Below, one piece after another: positions 2,539 to 43,196 of a stretch of 64,000 nt of DNA; positions within the stretch are counted from its first letter, which is position 1, and the number at the start of each line of letters is the position of its first letter. The notes under the pieces are model-generated. The model did not search any database, had not been told where the DNA came from, and worked only from the letters and a program-made list of their open reading frames with translations. The translations under genes and the position numbers were made by a program. Source of the stretch: Terriglobus albidus (lineage in GTDB: Bacteria; Acidobacteriota; Terriglobia; Terriglobales; Acidobacteriaceae); contig NZ_JAGTAS010000054.1 of NCBI RefSeq assembly GCF_025685425.1, positions 1 through 64,000 on the forward strand. The letters are read 5' to 3'.

Positions 2539-3993
2539 ATGCTTTCGGCAGAACTTCTTACCGCCTTTTCCCAGATTGTCGGTCCGCGCGGCCTGATTAC
2601 CGCTCAGAACCAGTTGCAGACCTATGAATGTGATGGCCTTACGGCCTTCCGTGAAGCCCCCTCTGCCGTCCTGCTGCCGGAGACCACCGAACAGGTACAG
2701 GCAATCCTGCGTCTCTGTAGCCGCCACAAAGTTCCATTTGTGGCGCGCGGTGCCGGCACGGGACTGTCGGGCGGTGCGTTGCCGACTCACGGTTGCGTCG
2801 TCATCGGCTTCTCCCGCATGGCGAAGGTCCTGAACATCGATCTCGTCAACCATCAGGTGACGGTGCAGCCCGGAGTCATCAACGCGAACGTTACCGCCGC
2901 GGTCGCAGGCGCCGGATTCTTCTACGCTCCGGACCCCTCTTCGCAGACGGTGTGCACTATTGGCGGCAATGTTGCCGAGAACGCCGGCGGAGCCCACTGC
3001 CTGAAATACGGCTTCACCGTCACTCACGTTCTGGAAGCGACAGTGGTTCTACCATCCGGCGAGCTGGTAACGCTGGGCAGCAAATCGCCCGATGCTCCCG
3101 GCTACGATCTTCTCGGTGTCTTTATCGGAAGCGAAGGGACGCTCGGTATCGCCACCGAGATGACCCTACGCATCGTACGGAAACCCGAAGCCATCCAGGT
3201 GCTTCTGGCGGCCTTCCCCTCCATCTCAGCCGCGGCGCAGACGGTCAGCGACATCATCGCTGCCGGGCTTCTGCCCTCGGCGATGGAGATTATGGACCGG
3301 CTCGCCATCGTTGCCGCGGAAGCAGCCGTACATCCTAACTATCCGATGTGTGACGGTCTGCTGATTGTCGAGGTCGACGGTCCGTCCGCTGAGGTCAAGC
3401 TGCAGGCGGAGCAGGTGCTGGAACTCTGCGGTAAAAACGGAGCTCTCGAGACACGCCATGCCGTCGACGAAGCTGATCGTCTTCTGATCTGGAAAGGTCG
3501 CAAGGCAGCCTTCGCCGCCGCCGGCCGCCTGAGCCCGAACTACATCGTCCAGGATGGCGTCATTCCCCGGACGACGCTTCCTGTCGTTCTGGAGAAGATT
3601 GCCGCCATGGCCAACGCGGAAGGTCTGCGTGTTACGAATGTCTTTCACGCCGGAGATGGCAATCTGCATCCTATCGTGCTCTATAACCGTGACAATCCGG
3701 GGGAAGAGGAACGCGCCATTGATCTCTCGATGCGCATCCTCGATCTTTGTGTCGAAGCCGGTGGCTCCATCACCGGGGAACACGGCGTCGGCCGCGAGAA
3801 GCAGTGCAGCATGAGCTACATGTATGCCCCCGCCGATCTGGCGACGATGCAGCGCGTGCGCCGCGCCTTCGATCCCAACAACATTGCCAACCCGGAGAAG
3901 CTCTTCCCCACGCCACGTCTCTGCGGTGAACAGAGCCGTGGTCACTATGTCCCACACCCGGTGGAAGCCTCCGGCATTGCGGAGGTCTTCTAG
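2539..3993 (+). CDS. glcD: Glycolate oxidase FAD subunit GlcD
   Basis: This is the FAD-linked catalytic subunit that oxidises glycolate to glyoxylate, passing electrons through GlcF to the respiratory chain. The 484-residue product is close to the usual GlcD length. The FAD_binding_4 signature 'RGAGTGLSGGALP' is at residues 70-82, and the C-terminal FAD-oxidase 'GEHGVGREKQ' is near residue 414. I chose the ATG at 2539: the frame is open further upstream, but that part overlaps msrP in antisense and is not GlcD-like; an ATG at 2497 is an alternative. The stop codon TAG (3991-3993) is also the first three bases of a palindromic repeat element. It is the first gene of glcDEF. Confidence 0.95.
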   Translation: MLSAELLTAFSQIVGPRGLITAQNQLQTYECDGLTAFREAPSAVLLPETTEQVQAILRLCSRHKVPFVARGAGTGLSGGALPTHGCVVIGFSRMAKVLNIDLVNHQVTVQPGVINANVTAAVAGAGFFYAPDPSSQTVCTIGGNVAENAGGAHCLKYGFTVTHVLEATVVLPSGELVTLGSKSPDAPGYDLLGVFIGSEGTLGIATEMTLRIVRKPEAIQVLLAAFPSISAAAQTVSDIIAAGLLPSAMEIMDRLAIVAAEAAVHPNYPMCDGLLIVEVDGPSAEVKLQAEQVLELCGKNGALETRHAVDEADRLLIWKGRKAAFAAAGRLSPNYIVQDGVIPRTTLPVVLEKIAAMANAEGLRVTNVFHAGDGNLHPIVLYNRDNPGEEERAIDLSMRILDLCVEAGGSITGEHGVGREKQCSMSYMYAPADLATMQRVRRAFDPNNIANPEKLFPTPRLCGEQSRGHYVPHPVEASGIAEVF

Positions 3994-4106
3994 AGCATTT
4001 CTCCTGTTCCTGGGTAGCCCGGAAGAGGAGTTCAGTGGCGTTCTCATTGCGGAAAACGCCCATAAATGCGGAAGCCCTACTCTACACCCACAGGAGAAAT
4101 GCTCTA
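3991..4106 (+). repeat. TAGAGCA palindromic element, copy A (116 bp), between glcD and glcE
   Basis: The element has terminal inverted repeats TAGAGCATTTCTCCTG and CAGGAGAAATGCTCTA, with a central GGCGTT/AACGCC hairpin. It fills the glcD-glcE junction exactly. Its first bases TAG stop glcD, and its AGGAG (4092-4096) is the Shine-Dalgarno of glcE, whose ATG follows immediately at 4107. Copy B (25155-25270) has the same length and is closely similar in inverted orientation. Confidence 0.9.
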
Positions 4107-5318
4107 ATGCCGGTAATCACCCATCTCGCTGAACATCTGGCTCCACTCGTTGGCCATGAGTTTGTCAGAGAAGACAACGGCGTCTTCGTCGTTTCTCCCA
4201 AAGACACGCACGAGGTTGCCGCGGTGATAGGCTTCGCCGACCACCATGGACTCAAGGTACGGCCCACCGGAGGCCGTACGAAACTTGCCTGGGGGGCCGC
4301 GGCCGAGCCGCAGATTGAGCTCTCTCTCCAGCGGCTGAATCAGGTTGTCGATCATCCATGGCAGGACCTCACCTGCACCGTACAAGCGGGTTGTACCTGG
4401 GAGACGCTGCAGCAGACACTCGCGCGGCATGGCCAGTTTGTGGCGCTGGACCCGCTATGGCCGGCTACAGCAACGGTTGGGGGAATCTGCGCCACCAACG
4501 ACTCCGGAGCTTTGCGCCATCGCTACGGGTCTCTACGCGATCTGGTGCTTGGCATGACGATCGTATTGGCCGATGGGACCATTGCCCGCACCGGCGGCCG
4601 CGTGGTGAAGAATGTCGCCGGTTATGATCTGCCGAAGCTGATGGTCGGCTCGCGCGGCACATTGGCCGTCATCACCGAGGTGACCTTCCGTTTGTATGCT
4701 TTGCCGCGCTACGCGCAAAGCTTCACGGTAACCGCTGAAATCGCCAGGAAACTTGCGGCTCTGATGCAGGCGATTCGCGATAGCCACCTGGCGACACAGG
4801 CTCTACAGTTACGTGGAGATGCGTCTGGTTTCGCGTTGGATATTCAACTCAATGCGCATCCCGAAGCGAAGCAGGAGGCTATGCTGGCAGTCCTCGCCCG
4901 ACAACATGGCGTGACGATCCATCCGTCATCGCCCGATGTATGGAGATCCCGCGAAGACCTGATGAATACGCCAAATGCCTTTCTGGTGAAGGTGACCGGA
5001 AAGGCGTCCGAGCTTTCATCCAATGCAGCGGAAGTTGTCCAGCTTGGAGGGCGCTGCGTTGCGCAAGCGATAGGCATTCTCTACGCCAGTTTCCCGAATA
5101 TAAGCCAAACGTATTCCGCGCTGGGAAGCCTCTATGCGCATACCGATGCCGGTTCCATGACAGTCTTGTCGGTTCCTCAAAATCCACAGGACGATTCAAT
5201 GCCGCCGTGGGGCGCGAAAGAGCCTTCTCCACTGACGATGCTCGTCAAACAGCAGTTCGATCCCAACCAGACACTCAATCCGCTGGCCATTGAGCCAGCA
5301 CCGCAACCGGTCCGCTAG
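4107..5318 (+). CDS. glcE: Glycolate oxidase subunit GlcE
   Basis: This is the second FAD-binding subunit of the glycolate oxidase complex (403 residues). It carries the FAD_binding_4 domain with 'PTGGRTKLAWG' and the strongly conserved block 'GGRVVKNVAGYDLPKLMVGS' typical of GlcE, and ends with a short cap-like C-terminal region containing 'QFDPNQTLNPL'. The start at 4107 is set by the AGGAG at 4092-4096, inside the TAGAGCA repeat. The frame stays open upstream through the repeat, but that part is not protein-like. glcF begins 5 bp after the stop codon, so the two are co-transcribed. Confidence 0.93.
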   Translation: MPVITHLAEHLAPLVGHEFVREDNGVFVVSPKDTHEVAAVIGFADHHGLKVRPTGGRTKLAWGAAAEPQIELSLQRLNQVVDHPWQDLTCTVQAGCTWETLQQTLARHGQFVALDPLWPATATVGGICATNDSGALRHRYGSLRDLVLGMTIVLADGTIARTGGRVVKNVAGYDLPKLMVGSRGTLAVITEVTFRLYALPRYAQSFTVTAEIARKLAALMQAIRDSHLATQALQLRGDASGFALDIQLNAHPEAKQEAMLAVLARQHGVTIHPSSPDVWRSREDLMNTPNAFLVKVTGKASELSSNAAEVVQLGGRCVAQAIGILYASFPNISQTYSALGSLYAHTDAGSMTVLSVPQNPQDDSMPPWGAKEPSPLTMLVKQQFDPNQTLNPLAIEPAPQPVR

Positions 5319-5323
5319 CCATC

Positions 5324-6679
5324 ATGTCTCATCTGCACCAAATCGAACCTCCTGCCAAGCCCTCGGCCTTTGACCCGCATCATCCGCCATCAAAGGAACT
5401 GCTCTCCGACTGCGTTCATTGCGGCTTTTGTCTTCCCGCATGTCCCACCTATGTTCTGTGGAGCGAAGAGATGGACTCTCCTCGTGGACGCATCTATATG
5501 ATGACGAAGGCCGCGCAGGGCGAAGCCGGCCTGGATCAGAACTTCCGCACACACATGGACAATTGCCTGGGGTGCATGGCCTGCGTGACCGCTTGCCCCT
5601 CCGGCGTGCAGTACAACAAGCTCATCGAGGATACGCGCTCCCAAATCGAGCGCAACATCCCGCGCTCGACCGATGACTCTCTCTTCCGCAAGCTGCTCTT
5701 CGCCACCTTTCCTCATCCGGCGCGGCTGCGTCTGATGGCCTATCCTATGCTGGCCTATCAGCGGCTTGGGTTGCAGAAGCTTGTCCGTGCCACGGGGCTT
5801 CTGAAGCTGCTACCCAAACGTCTGCAGGCGATGGAAGCGCTGCTGCCTCGCGTGCCTGACTCGCTCTTCCGCAGCCACATCACGCTCTCCAATAAGGCGA
5901 AGACGGCCGACCGACCGCGCGTTGGCCTTCTGACCGGTTGCGTACAGCAGGTCTTCTTCCAGCATGTGAACGAAGCCACGGCACGGGTACTGGAGGCCGA
6001 GGGATGCCAGGTCGTCGTTCCTGAGAACCAGCAATGCTGCGGAGCCCTGATGGTGCACACCGGTGTCGAGGATGAAGCTCTGCGAATGGCCAAACAGACC
6101 ATCGCCCAGTTCGAGGCGGCCAACGTCGACTACATCGCCATCAATGCCGCCGGGTGCGGTTCCACGATGAAAGAGTACGGTTTTCTGCTGCGCGACGACC
6201 CACAATGGGCGGAACGAGCTGCGGCTTTTAGTGCTAAGTGCCGCGATATCTCGGAGCTACTGAGCGTCCTCGAACCCCGCAGCCCAAGGCATCCCCTGCC
6301 CTTGCGGGTCGCCTACCAGGATGCCTGCCACCTACGCCATGCCCAGGGTATCTATGCCGAACCGCGCGGTCTGCTGAAGACCATCCCCGGTCTCGATCTC
6401 CGCGAGGTGCCCGAGGCCAATCTCTGCTGCGGTTCGGCGGGTATCTATAACCTGGTTCAGCCAGACCCGGCGGCCGAGCTTGGTGACCGTAAGGTCGATA
6501 ACCTGCTCTCGACCGAGGCCGAGGCGTTGATCTCCGCCAACCCTGGCTGCCTGCTGCAGCTCCAGGCTGGATTGCGCCGCCGTGGTCATGCGGAGATTCC
6601 AACCTTTCACATGGTGGAGCTGCTGGACGCGAGCATCCGCAATCTCTCAGCAGAAGAGCTGCTGCATCGCCGCGCCTGA
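5324..6679 (+). CDS. glcF: Glycolate oxidase iron-sulfur subunit GlcF
   Basis: This is the electron-transfer subunit that links the GlcD/GlcE flavins to the quinone pool. Two 4Fe-4S clusters are bound by 'CVHCGFCLPACP' (about residues 29-40) and 'CLGCMACVTACP' (about residues 81-92). Two CCG cysteine-rich domains follow ('QQCCGALMVHTG' near 238, 'NLCCGSAGIYN' near 367). The length (451 residues) is slightly longer than E. coli GlcF. It is the last gene of glcDEF and is followed by a repeat-derived terminator. The convergent downstream gene, malate synthase, consumes the glyoxylate made by this complex. Confidence 0.95.
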   Translation: MSHLHQIEPPAKPSAFDPHHPPSKELLSDCVHCGFCLPACPTYVLWSEEMDSPRGRIYMMTKAAQGEAGLDQNFRTHMDNCLGCMACVTACPSGVQYNKLIEDTRSQIERNIPRSTDDSLFRKLLFATFPHPARLRLMAYPMLAYQRLGLQKLVRATGLLKLLPKRLQAMEALLPRVPDSLFRSHITLSNKAKTADRPRVGLLTGCVQQVFFQHVNEATARVLEAEGCQVVVPENQQCCGALMVHTGVEDEALRMAKQTIAQFEAANVDYIAINAAGCGSTMKEYGFLLRDDPQWAERAAAFSAKCRDISELLSVLEPRSPRHPLPLRVAYQDACHLRHAQGIYAEPRGLLKTIPGLDLREVPEANLCCGSAGIYNLVQPDPAAELGDRKVDNLLSTEAEALISANPGCLLQLQAGLRRRGHAEIPTFHMVELLDASIRNLSAEELLHRRA

Positions 6680-23639: not shown

Positions 23640-25157
23640 ATGATCGTGTCACCCGTACCTGAGGCACTTACCTTCGACGACGTCCTGCTCGTTCCTGCGT
23701 ACTCCGACGTTGTCCCTACGCAGGTTTCCACGCAGGTCCGTCTTACCGCCAACATCATGCTGAACATTCCGCTGATGTCGGCCGCGATGGACACCGTAAC
23801 CGAGTCCCGTCTGGCCATCGCGATGGCACAACAGGGCGGTATGGGCGTTGTCCACCGCAACCTCTCCATTGAGGCCCAGGCAAGCGAGATCGATAAGGTC
23901 AAGCGCTCTGAGTCCGGCATGATCGTCGACCCGGTCACCATCGGACCCGATCAACCCATCTCCGCCGCCCTTGAGGTCATGCGCCGCTACAAGATCTCCG
24001 GCGTTCCGGTGACGCAGAATCGCAAGCTGGTCGGCATTCTGACGAACCGCGACCTCCGTTTCGTCTCCCGTACCGACCTCCGCATCGACGAGGTGATGAC
24101 CAAGAGCAACCTCATCACTGTCCCGGTCGGCACGACATTGGGACAGGCGGAAGAGATCCTCCACCAGCACCGCGTGGAGAAGCTTCTGGTGGTCAACGAC
24201 GCCTACGAACTGAAGGGTCTGATCACTGTCAAAGATATCCAGAAGAAGTTGAAGTATCCCAACGCCTGCAAAGACGGCCAGGGCCGTCTGCGTGTTGCCG
24301 GAGCCATCGGCGCCACGGGCGACTTTCTGGAGCGCGCGGCTGAGTTGATCAAGGCGCGCGTCGACGCGTTGGCCATCGACTCCGCCCACGGCCATTCCAG
24401 CCGCGTTCTCGAAGCCGTCGCCGAGTGCAAGAAGCGCTTCCCTAACGTTGATCTGATTGCCGGCAACATTGCCACCTACGAAGGCTGCGCTGCTCTCATC
24501 GAAGCCGGCGCCGACGCCGTGAAGGTAGGCATTGGGCCTGGCTCCATCTGCACCACCCGCATGGTAACCGGCGCGGGCATGCCCCAGATCACCGCAATCT
24601 CTGAGGCCTACCGTGCCGCCGATGAGCGCGGTATCTCCGTCATCGCTGACGGCGGTATCAAGTACTCCGGTGATATCACCAAGGCCATCGCCGCGGGCGC
24701 CTCCATCGTCATGATGGGTTCGCTCTTCGCCGGCGTGGACGAGTCCCCGGGTGAGACCATCCTCTACCAGGGCCGCAGCTTCAAAGCTTACCGCGGCATG
24801 GGTTCACTCTCTGCAATGGCGCAGGGATCGGGCGAGCGCTACTTCCAGGGCAAGGACGACATGACTCCGTCTGAACGGCAATCCATCACGGCTCCCGAAC
24901 AAACGAACTCCAACCGCCTGGCCAAGTTCGTTCCTGAAGGTATTGAAGGCCGCGTCCCACATCGCGGACCGCTGGAGAACATGGTCTACCAGCTCGTCGG
25001 CGGACTGCGCTCCGGCATGGGCTATCTGGGTTGCGGCACGATTCCGGACCTGCAGAAGAATGGGCGCTTTATTCGTATCTCCGGCGCAGGTTTACGCGAG
25101 TCGCACGTCCACGATGTCATCATCACGCGCGAAGCGCCCAACTATCACGTCGAATAG
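23640..25157 (+). CDS. guaB: IMP dehydrogenase
   Basis: The enzyme oxidises IMP to XMP with NAD+, the committed step of GMP synthesis. The 505 residues contain the N-terminal '[17 protein letters not shown]' and '[13 protein letters not shown]', a central pair of CBS domains (about residues 95-215), 'ANIATYEG'-type loop '[24 protein letters not shown]' (landmarks only), the catalytic loop '[15 protein letters not shown]' with the active-site Cys near residue 304, and the flap '[10 protein letters not shown]'. Its stop codon TAG coincides with the first bases of TAGAGCA repeat copy B. Gmk, a later enzyme of the same pathway, is encoded at 12.8-13.5 kb. Confidence 0.97.
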
Positions 25158-25270
25158 AGCATTTCTCCTGAAGGTGTAGTGCAGGGTTTATGCATCTGTG
25201 GGCGTTTTCCTCAATGAAAACGCCGCTGCACACTCCTCACGGGATGCCCAGCAACAGGAGAAATGCTCTA
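25155..25270 (-). repeat. TAGAGCA palindromic element, copy B (116 bp), between guaB and the VanZ gene
   Basis: It has the same termini as copy A (TAGAGCATTTCTCCTG / CAGGAGAAATGCTCTA) and a central GGCGTTTTC...GAAAACGCC hairpin. Read on the minus strand it closely matches copy A. Its first bases TAG are the guaB stop codon. Its AGGAG (25256-25260) lies 11 nt before the ATG of the next gene at 25272. Confidence 0.92.
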
Positions 25271-34849: not shown

Positions 34850-34930
34850 GGATGGAGTCTCGGCGGTCCTCCTCAACCTGGATTATCCATCCTTACAGAT
34901 AGCCACGGATAAAGACGGGCTGTAACGGCT

Positions 34931-35081
34931 CGAGCAGTTCTCCTAATGGTATAGAGCGGATTATTGGGGTCCCCAGCGAACTCGTTCGCTGGGTGACGTC
35001 TTGGCAGTTTGCGCCGTTTTCTTTCGGAGAAAACGGATTCACATATTTATCCAACGGTACAGTATTAGAAGAATTGCTCTA
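34931..35081 (-). repeat. TAGAGCA-type element, copy D, with an inserted small hairpin repeat
   Basis: The ends are GAGCAGTTCTCCTAAT and ATTAGAAGAATTGCTCTA, and the core GCCGTTTTCT...AGAAAACGG matches copy C (42751-42865) in the opposite orientation. Relative to copy C, about 38 bp are inserted near 34961-34998. They contain the perfect hairpin CCCAGCGAAC-TC-GTTCGCTGGG (34972-34993), a small repeat also seen near 25.85 and 57.71 kb. The element lies between the cupin and MFS genes. Confidence 0.8.
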
Positions 35082-42750: not shown

Positions 42751-42865
42751 TAGAGCAATTCTCCTAATACTGTAGCTCTGGATAAACCTGCAAATGCCGT
42801 TTTCTTCGAAGGAAAACGGCGTAAACAGCCGAGACTCCGCTCTACGCCTTTAGGAGACTTGCTCT
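42751..42865. repeat. TAGAGCA-type palindromic element, copy C (115 bp)
   Basis: It starts TAGAGCAATTCTCCTAAT and ends AGGAGACTTGCTCTA, around the hairpin GCCGTTTTC..GAAAACGGC. It belongs to the same family as copies A and B but forms a sub-type with copy D. Here it does not touch a coding region. Confidence 0.85.
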
Positions 42866-43196
42866 ATGGCATGCGCACGCAGAGGAGCTGGGTTTTCGCG
42901 ATTTCTCCAGCTTGTCTCTGGTGAAGGAGAATCGCAGGCAACTGGGGAACTCTGCGTGTTGCATTTAAAAACGATTAGCGACTTTTGCTCTTGTCTTTGC
43001 TCTTGTTCACGATAGGTATCTCGTGGTTAAATTGCCGGTCCAATACGCGGCGCACGCAAGACGGTATGCGAGCTGCTGCGCAACGAGGAGCGGGCCTGGT
43101 TGGAAAAGGCGCGTTGCCAATTGAGGCCTCGCCCGCGTGATCGGGGAAAGGCGGAATCTTGAAAGCCCCTCAATGCATGAAAGGAGGAATGACGGC
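42866..43196. other. Intergenic region without a supported gene
   Basis: Between repeat copy C and the small acidic protein I found no gene with motifs or good translation signals. The end of the interval holds AAGGAGG, which sets the next start. Antisense open frames are Arg/Ser-rich shadows. Confidence 0.45.

Follow-up and report, generated by a model that had tools for sequence, protein, structure and literature searches.

A MITE-like repeat at the glcD–glcE junction of Terriglobus albidus supplies the glcD stop codon and probably the glcE ribosome-binding site

The glcD–glcE junction

The window, that is, the whole 64,000-nucleotide stretch of Terriglobus albidus DNA analysed here, contains a group of glc genes, which we named from their domains and gene order: glcD (FAD_binding_4 and FAD-oxidase_C), glcE (FAD_binding_4) and a GlcF-like gene (CCG and 4Fe-4S). 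A malate synthase gene is adjacent on the other strand. The features of the junction between the first two genes are as follows.

2539..3993, + strand: glcD, 484 aa; C terminus ...GIAEVF; the element's first three bases form its stop codon
3991..4106, + strand: MITE-like element, full copy including the duplicated TA at each end
3991..3993, + strand: glcD stop codon TAG, consisting of the target TA and the element's first base, G; TAA in two empty sites
3991..4007, + strand: left terminal inverted repeat, TAGAGCATTTCTCCTGT
4090..4106, − strand: right terminal inverted repeat, fully complementary to the left arm
4105..4106, no strand assigned: second target dinucleotide TA, directly 5' of the glcE ATG
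4107..5318, + strand: glcE, 403 aa; start conserved with congeners
5324-6679: GlcF-like gene, 3' of glcE

Direct reading of the sequence confirmed, with exact coordinates, the original prediction that the TAG opening the 116-bp element is the glcD stop codon; the 3' end of glcD reads ...GCG GAG GTC TTC TAG. The other end of the element was likewise found where it had been placed, its last base (4106, CAGGAGAAATGCTCTA) abutting the glcE ATG at 4107-4109, so that the distance from the glcD stop to the glcE start is now 113 nt. The two arms (3991-4007 and 4090-4106) are 17 nt each and 100% complementary. At 116 bp, the element has no room for a transposase of its own. We found neither a sigma-70-type promoter nor an intrinsic terminator inside 3991-4106, two terminator-like sites lying outside the element, and positions 3900-4300 had no Rfam match at E ≤ 1.

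A dispersed repeat family

Sequences resembling the 17-bp end (at most 3 mismatches) occurred 5 times in the window, compared with 0.09 expected from shuffles, and 558 times in the genome from which the window comes (280 forward and 278 reverse; 6,104,258 bases in 58 contigs), compared with 3 and 0 for a reversed control pattern. These hundreds of end matches bear out the description of the element as a repeat and establish the family. By blast, the element had at least 51 matches in its own genome at E ≤ 0.01 (40 of 395 first-look candidates scored). It had matches in five of 41 genomes, namely its own, the congeners G002, G012 and G015 (247-298 first-look candidates) and G010 (one weak partial match), and was unmatched in the other 36.

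Copies were sampled in three genomes: from the own genome 1,260,284 bases, counting the window, from G002 360 kb and from G015 a single contig. This sample held 156 copies, of which 26 were partial and 3 had poor ends; without these 29, 127 complete copies remained, 101 from the own genome, 25 from G002 and 1 from G015. By type, 118 belonged to the main family and 9 to a sister family. TA was present at the left end in 93 of the 127, at the right end in 101 and at both ends in 74; most copies without TA we take to have mutated there.

Sister-family copies have similar, TAGAGCAATTCTCCT-like ends and a different interior. One lies in the window at 42751-42866, and another, with a seemingly longer interior, spans about 152 bp at 34930-35081. 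Among 150 genomes drawn from the taxonomic family, the sister family matched four: over almost its whole length in the own genome and in G002, and as short pieces in G008 and G099; G015 carries a sister-family copy, yet is absent from that match list.

Empty sites and target duplication

Element-free junctions from relatives allowed a direct comparison. The own genome reads GAGGTCTTC-TA[GAGC...GCTC]TA-ATGCCGG, compared with GAGGTCTTC-TA-ATGC at the orthologous loci of G015 and G002. Put otherwise, GAGGTCTTC-[element]-ATGCCGG stands against GAGGTCTTCTAATGC in these two congeners, and the alignment covered 602 columns for 602 bases in both. The net inserted unit is 114 bp, and the remaining 2 bp of the 116 are the duplicated TA. 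In the empty junction, TTC-TA-ATG, the glcD stop codon TAA overlaps the glcE ATG as TAATG, and glcE begins at the same ATG as in the own genome. For the conserved glcE start, both outcomes that would have spoken against the original prediction, a conserved single-copy 116 bp or a glcE start elsewhere, are contradicted by G015 and G002. The protein ends are unchanged: GlcD ends in ...GIAEVF in all three genomes, and GlcE has 403 aa in the own genome and in G015.

At the eight best-scoring named loci from further relatives (L039-L046; Granulicella and other Acidobacteriaceae), with junctions read by eye, the start that follows glcD likewise overlaps its stop or adjoins it. The insertion therefore disrupted a layout that is the rule in near relatives. 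Among other, more distant loci, some show overlap and others gaps of up to hundreds of bases.

We also joined the flanks of the sampled copies and compared them with sampled congener sequence, excluding matches that came from other repeat copies in the flanks, which left eight informative comparisons. Seven were gap-free at the junction, and in five of these seven the empty site was exactly TA: C55:3991 (matching two genomes), C55:25155, C55:84378, G015:564 and G002:194766. The G015:564 comparison has a 2-nt gap about 10 nt from the junction. C55:75759 was gap-free with CA at its empty site, and the comparison for G002:307391 was not clean. The copy at C55:93603-93718 (L186) carries TG at each end, and its gap-free empty site in G002 is likewise TG, which lends independent support to a 2-bp duplication and suggests that target choice may not be strictly TA. 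The empty sites thus establish a target-site duplication of 2 bp. The G015:564 copy (C316:564-679, L184) is of the sister family and lies in the TA of a TATG, so that the first base of the start codon, A, and an AGGAG preceding that codon both come from the element; its empty site is kept in the own genome.

glcE has not visibly suffered. Its dN/dS between the own genome and G015 is 0.129, and the own and G015 copies are about equally distant from that of G002 (68.2% and 67.7% identity), whereas the own glcD is slightly more distant from G002 than that of G015 is (95.2% versus 96.9%). Judged from these values, glcE appears to stay constrained with no sign of decay, although an insertion too young to have left a mark would look alike.

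The glcE ribosome-binding site

Three features bear on where glcE translation starts.

3981..3985, + strand: GGAGG, ancestral glcE Shine-Dalgarno sequence within the last glcD codons, now displaced
4092..4096, + strand: AGGAG in the right arm, proposed present glcE Shine-Dalgarno sequence, 10 nt before the ATG
4026..4037, + strand: second AGGAG (4026-4030) and GTG (4035-4037), 4-nt spacing, in frame with glcE; possible alternative start

In G015 and G002, GGAGG lies 7 nt before the glcE ATG and gives a predicted duplex of −10.2 kcal/mol (the same on the joined flanks). The insertion moved the GGAGG of the own genome 114 bp further from this ATG. The AGGAG of the element gives −7.4 kcal/mol, weaker than the ancestral −10.2, compared with medians of −5.2 for called genes and −3.0 for random sites and with −4.9 for the family consensus end AGGGA; all of these energies presume a generic anti-Shine-Dalgarno sequence rather than this genome's own. 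The 10-nt spacing of AGGAG to the ATG is long. The claim that the element provides the only Shine-Dalgarno sequence stood for the 22 nt before the conserved ATG, where AGGAG is the sole such sequence that we saw, but not for the element as a whole, which has a second AGGAG (4026-4030) before the in-frame GTG at 4035. Similarly, AGGAG is present as the putative binding site that the element was said to supply; however, it replaced a stronger congener GGAGG inside glcD and filled no gap. With such corrections, the original interpretation is largely upheld. The most likely site from which glcE translation now starts is the AGGAG of the right arm. AGGAG arms were found at 4 of 17 ends near gene starts and at 7 of 219 others in the main family (p = 0.0045). 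We do not rely on this as a sign of selection for AGGAG near starts: the excess may reflect a subfamily, because both arms match in most such copies.

We propose that a non-autonomous MITE-like repeat inserted into the TA of TAATG and duplicated this TA. The glcD stop would thereby have changed from TAA to TAG while the glcE start remained ATG, and both reading frames would be unchanged because the element starts with G and the second TA abuts the ATG. The insertion would have removed the stop–start overlap and displaced the ancestral GGAGG in the end of glcD, and the AGGAG of the right arm would have taken over as the glcE Shine-Dalgarno sequence. We regard this account as a whole, with transposition into TAATG, a rebuilt stop and AGGAG as the new ribosome-binding site of glcE, as very probably correct.

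Copies that supply stop codons

By our own gene calls, which are based on codon usage and are not curated annotation, the same outcome recurs at many genes. The terminal TAG is the stop codon of a called gene in 42 of the 127 complete copies (32 of 101 in the own genome, 10 of 25 in G002 and 0 of 1 in G015). The original prediction had called a repeat acting as a gene junction unusual, and this did not hold: stop supply is common, at 32 of 101 own copies, and published repeats act similarly. One copy ends two called genes, giving 43 stops, all 43 of which are TAG today. In 41 of the 43, the joined flanks already read TAA or TAG (TAT in the other 2), so nearly all of these copies landed in an existing stop; target preference alone would make about three quarters look so (p = 0.0012).

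Stop codons account for 8.0% of the available TAs in the own genome and 11.7% in G002, and copies at stops are in excess of these shares (p = 5.6e-12 and 2.9e-4). The excess persisted after weighting for the YTAR target preference (p = 3.2e-6 and 1.8e-3), under a null that counts TA sites only, though just 74 of the 127 copies keep TA at both ends. In the own genome, the rate per TA was highest at stops (5.3%) and fell downstream of them to 2.9% within 1-20 nt, 1.4% within 21-50 nt and 0.7-1.0% farther on. The difference between stops and the next 20 nt was marginal (p = 0.068 in the own genome, 0.28 in G002 and 0.024 pooled).

One explanation is that the enrichment only reflects tolerance of insertions at the 3' ends of genes, not target choice, and that glcD–glcE was a lucky neutral hit. 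The steady fall of the per-TA rate away from stops in the own genome argues for it, as do the weak stop-versus-1-20-nt contrasts within each genome; on the other side, the pooled difference persists and YTAR preference alone leaves the excess unexplained. We lean towards this explanation, without much conviction. It addresses why the bias exists and does not conflict with the account of the junction given above. We read the stop enrichment as a gene-3'-end bias, mainly tolerance, that peaks at the stop codon.

The 42 stop-supplying copies comprise 29 between co-directional genes and 13 between convergent genes. Five copies both supply a stop and end 0-10 nt before a same-strand start: C55:3991, C55:25155, C28:19804, C28:552227 (sister family) and G002:194766. 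The second of these also lies in the window.

25155..25270, − strand: second window copy, same role; its TAG is the IMP dehydrogenase stop, AGGAG precedes the ATG of a VanZ-like gene (25272), and the empty site in G002 is GAATAAATG

TATG starts were hit as targets in 2 of 167 cases in the own genome and 2 of 50 in G002, which is not clearly raised. TAATG was hit in 3 of 20 and 0 of 6 cases, respectively, too few for a comparison.

RNA structure and translation of glcE

The RNA of the element folds with −50.7 kcal/mol (z = −4.7 against shuffles), and the 17-bp stem begins at the glcD stop; the DNA fold has z = −6.0. A stable structure therefore lies directly 3' of the stop codon, as in a ribosome termination structure (RTS). 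In the free RNA, AGGAG (4092-4096) is predicted to be fully paired within this stem. We aligned 29 copies (27 of the first 30 fetched, without L019, L023 and L028, and two window copies, one of which is sister-family). Of the 28 consensus pairs, seven, mostly in the arms, have both bases altered in one copy or more; one arm pair is C-G in 13 copies, U-A in 12 and broken in 4. The covariation energy term was small (−0.27), and the arms may match for reasons other than a function of the RNA, such as binding by a transposase or copying of one arm from the other. Tuning of the GlcD:GlcE ratio by the hairpin, also raised in the original prediction, is conjectural.

Energy calculations put the cost of opening the glcE ribosome-binding site at 21.7 kcal/mol in the free RNA, 16.0 with a ribosome on the glcD stop codon only and about 8 with a ribosome covering 6 nt past the stop. 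Without a ribosome, the joined flanks required 16.1 kcal/mol and the G015 junction 15.6. These energies suggest that glcE translation plausibly depends now on ribosomes that finish glcD: on reaching the glcD stop, a ribosome would pull the left arm out of the stem, and translation of glcE would stay dependent on that ribosome. When the left arm was blocked, however, the last four bases of AGGAG still paired with other partners (3-16% unpaired), so the arrival of a ribosome is predicted not to free AGGAG fully. A clean opening of the Shine-Dalgarno sequence by the ribosome, favoured by the opening energy alone, finds no support in the base-pair probabilities, and we set it aside.

The hairpin could instead insulate the two genes in the manner of an RTS, with ribosomes released at the stop, glcE translation lowered and uncoupled, and the intact junction being neutral debris of a young insertion. 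The strength of the fold and its start at the stop codon fit this possibility, as does a free-RNA opening cost above those of the joined flanks and G015, and published RTS work ties post-stop structure to control of re-initiation and to insulation (PMC7518266). Against it, glcE is not relaxed relative to G015, and the cost of opening its ribosome-binding site drops sharply with a ribosome on the stop. Moreover, GlcD and GlcE belong to a single complex, so a loss of coupling should carry a cost. We consider insulation possible, and less probable than its negation.

Returning to dependence of glcE on ribosomes that end glcD, a bolder form would make the whole family a portable joint for translational coupling, in which the arms rebuild TAG behind and provide AGGAG and TA ahead, the stem juxtaposes the stop with the next start, and the ribosome opens the stem and is handed over. 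This is a speculative reading that we think rather unlikely; if true, insertions into operons would be tolerated and the family would for this reason have accumulated at gene ends. Improbable, in our view, is that glcE starts at GTG 4035 inside the element from AGGAG 4026-4030, adding 24 residues to GlcE: the frame is open through the element to ATG 4107 (427-aa ORF), AGGAG lies 4 nt upstream and the GTG was created by a base deviating from the family consensus, but glcE begins at ATG in G015 and G002, the 4-nt spacing is short and GTG is usually a weaker start codon.

Relation to known repeats

BOX elements are modular and unrelated in sequence to the element described here. In Streptococcus pneumoniae ATCC 700669, 58 coding sequences overlap BOX and 36 of them have a BOX-encoded stop codon, with no strong evidence of truncation (PMC3049150). 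The likeness is that a repeat encodes the stop codons of genes; by contrast, the passages on BOX consulted describe no TA-target empty sites, no combined stop and ribosome-binding role and no enrichment per site (PMC3049150). According to a 2025 review, start codons are the insertion sites of MIRUs, mobile repeats whose internal ORF is coupled to the gene at −4 nt (PMC12548453). Both MIRUs and the present family are short, mobile-looking repeats at gene junctions, and in MIRUs, too, the next gene is reported to be little disturbed, through translational coupling; they differ in that MIRUs combine insertion at a start codon with a coupled ORF, whereas here the target is TA and the inverted repeats carry TAG and AGGAG (PMC12548453). 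The element contains no internal ORF of at least 20 aa with −4 spacing to glcE. In contrast to MIRUs, just a two-codon ATG-CTC-TAA in the right arm (4099-4107) overlaps the glcE ATG by 1 nt, its final base being the A of that ATG; it lies 2 nt from AGGAG, a spacing that makes its use unlikely, and the resemblance is faint.

TA-target MITEs such as RUP and the QMITEs of Coxiella are similarly small and non-coding, with terminal inverted repeats ending in TA and transcripts that form stable stem-loops (PMC5896051, PMC2229807). The present family differs in that a third of the complete sampled copies supply a stop codon. With RTSs it shares a stable mRNA structure directly 3' of the stop (PMC7518266), the difference being that here a dispersed repeat brought the structure in, with the Shine-Dalgarno sequence of the next gene in the 3' arm. 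A term search of a 2024 review of prokaryotic MITEs gave no occurrence of 'stop codon', 'start codon' or 'Shine', and among the matches listed in the open-licence literature, titles and the beginnings of abstracts showed nothing on this family or on TA-MITEs enriched at stop codons. Given the MIRU and BOX precedents, the kind of element is already known; what is new is the route through the TA in TAATG, the TAG composed of target plus element, and a measured share of copies that supply stops.

The junction thus offers a base-by-base case of a mobile-looking repeat that entered an overlapping stop–start pair in an operon with neither protein changed, and the same has happened at many other genes of this genome. 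Congeners with and without the element form a natural test of whether a lost stop–start overlap has been replaced by structure-based coupling, which bears on how repeats shape operons.

Transposases and arrays

The element is short, has terminal inverted repeats, duplicates its target as judged from empty sites, is dispersed in many copies and encodes no transposase, all features of MITEs. We infer that it moved by transposition. IS630-type PF13358 gave 2 hits in the own genome, 3 in G002 and G015 and none in G012, with no fetched locus bracketed by repeat ends. PF13586 gave 0 hits in the own genome and G015 and 11 in G002 and G012, again with no fetched locus so bracketed, and PF13340 and PF01609 each gave 0 in the own genome. 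We use the term 'MITE-like' because none of these, the only DDE families tried, yielded a transposase with matching ends. The Y1 family PF01797 (Y1_Tnp) had 10 hits in the own genome, whose ten loci of 3.2-3.4 kb all lacked bracketing repeat ends; these loci give no link to a Y1 tyrosine transposase (RAYT) of the kind that REP palindromes have. Three Y1 loci (L225, L229 and L233) do hold matches to repeat ends, those in L229 being an inverted pair about 113 bp apart and away from the gene, and some of the transposase loci fetched have a single repeat end or a repeat copy nearby. Pairs of otherwise unpaired ends, sought at 135-4000 bp in the sampled sequence, numbered nine (152-2426 bp apart), none of which looked autonomous by eye.

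A separate multi-copy element on G002:C1 (ten loci, L242-L251) contains a transposase-like frame of 361 codons that matches PF13586 below threshold; a stretch of about 1.3 kb of L242 recurs at >99% in L246 and again in L247.

The own genome also contains arrays in which the element repeats head to tail about every 114 bp, at C55:219871-220284, C42:15898-16237, C50:419173-419515 and C56:101691-102036. The joint between units is TAATCGCATTTTC in the copies read at C55, C56 and C28. The C55 array extends to the end of the contig and is perhaps the cause of the assembly break.
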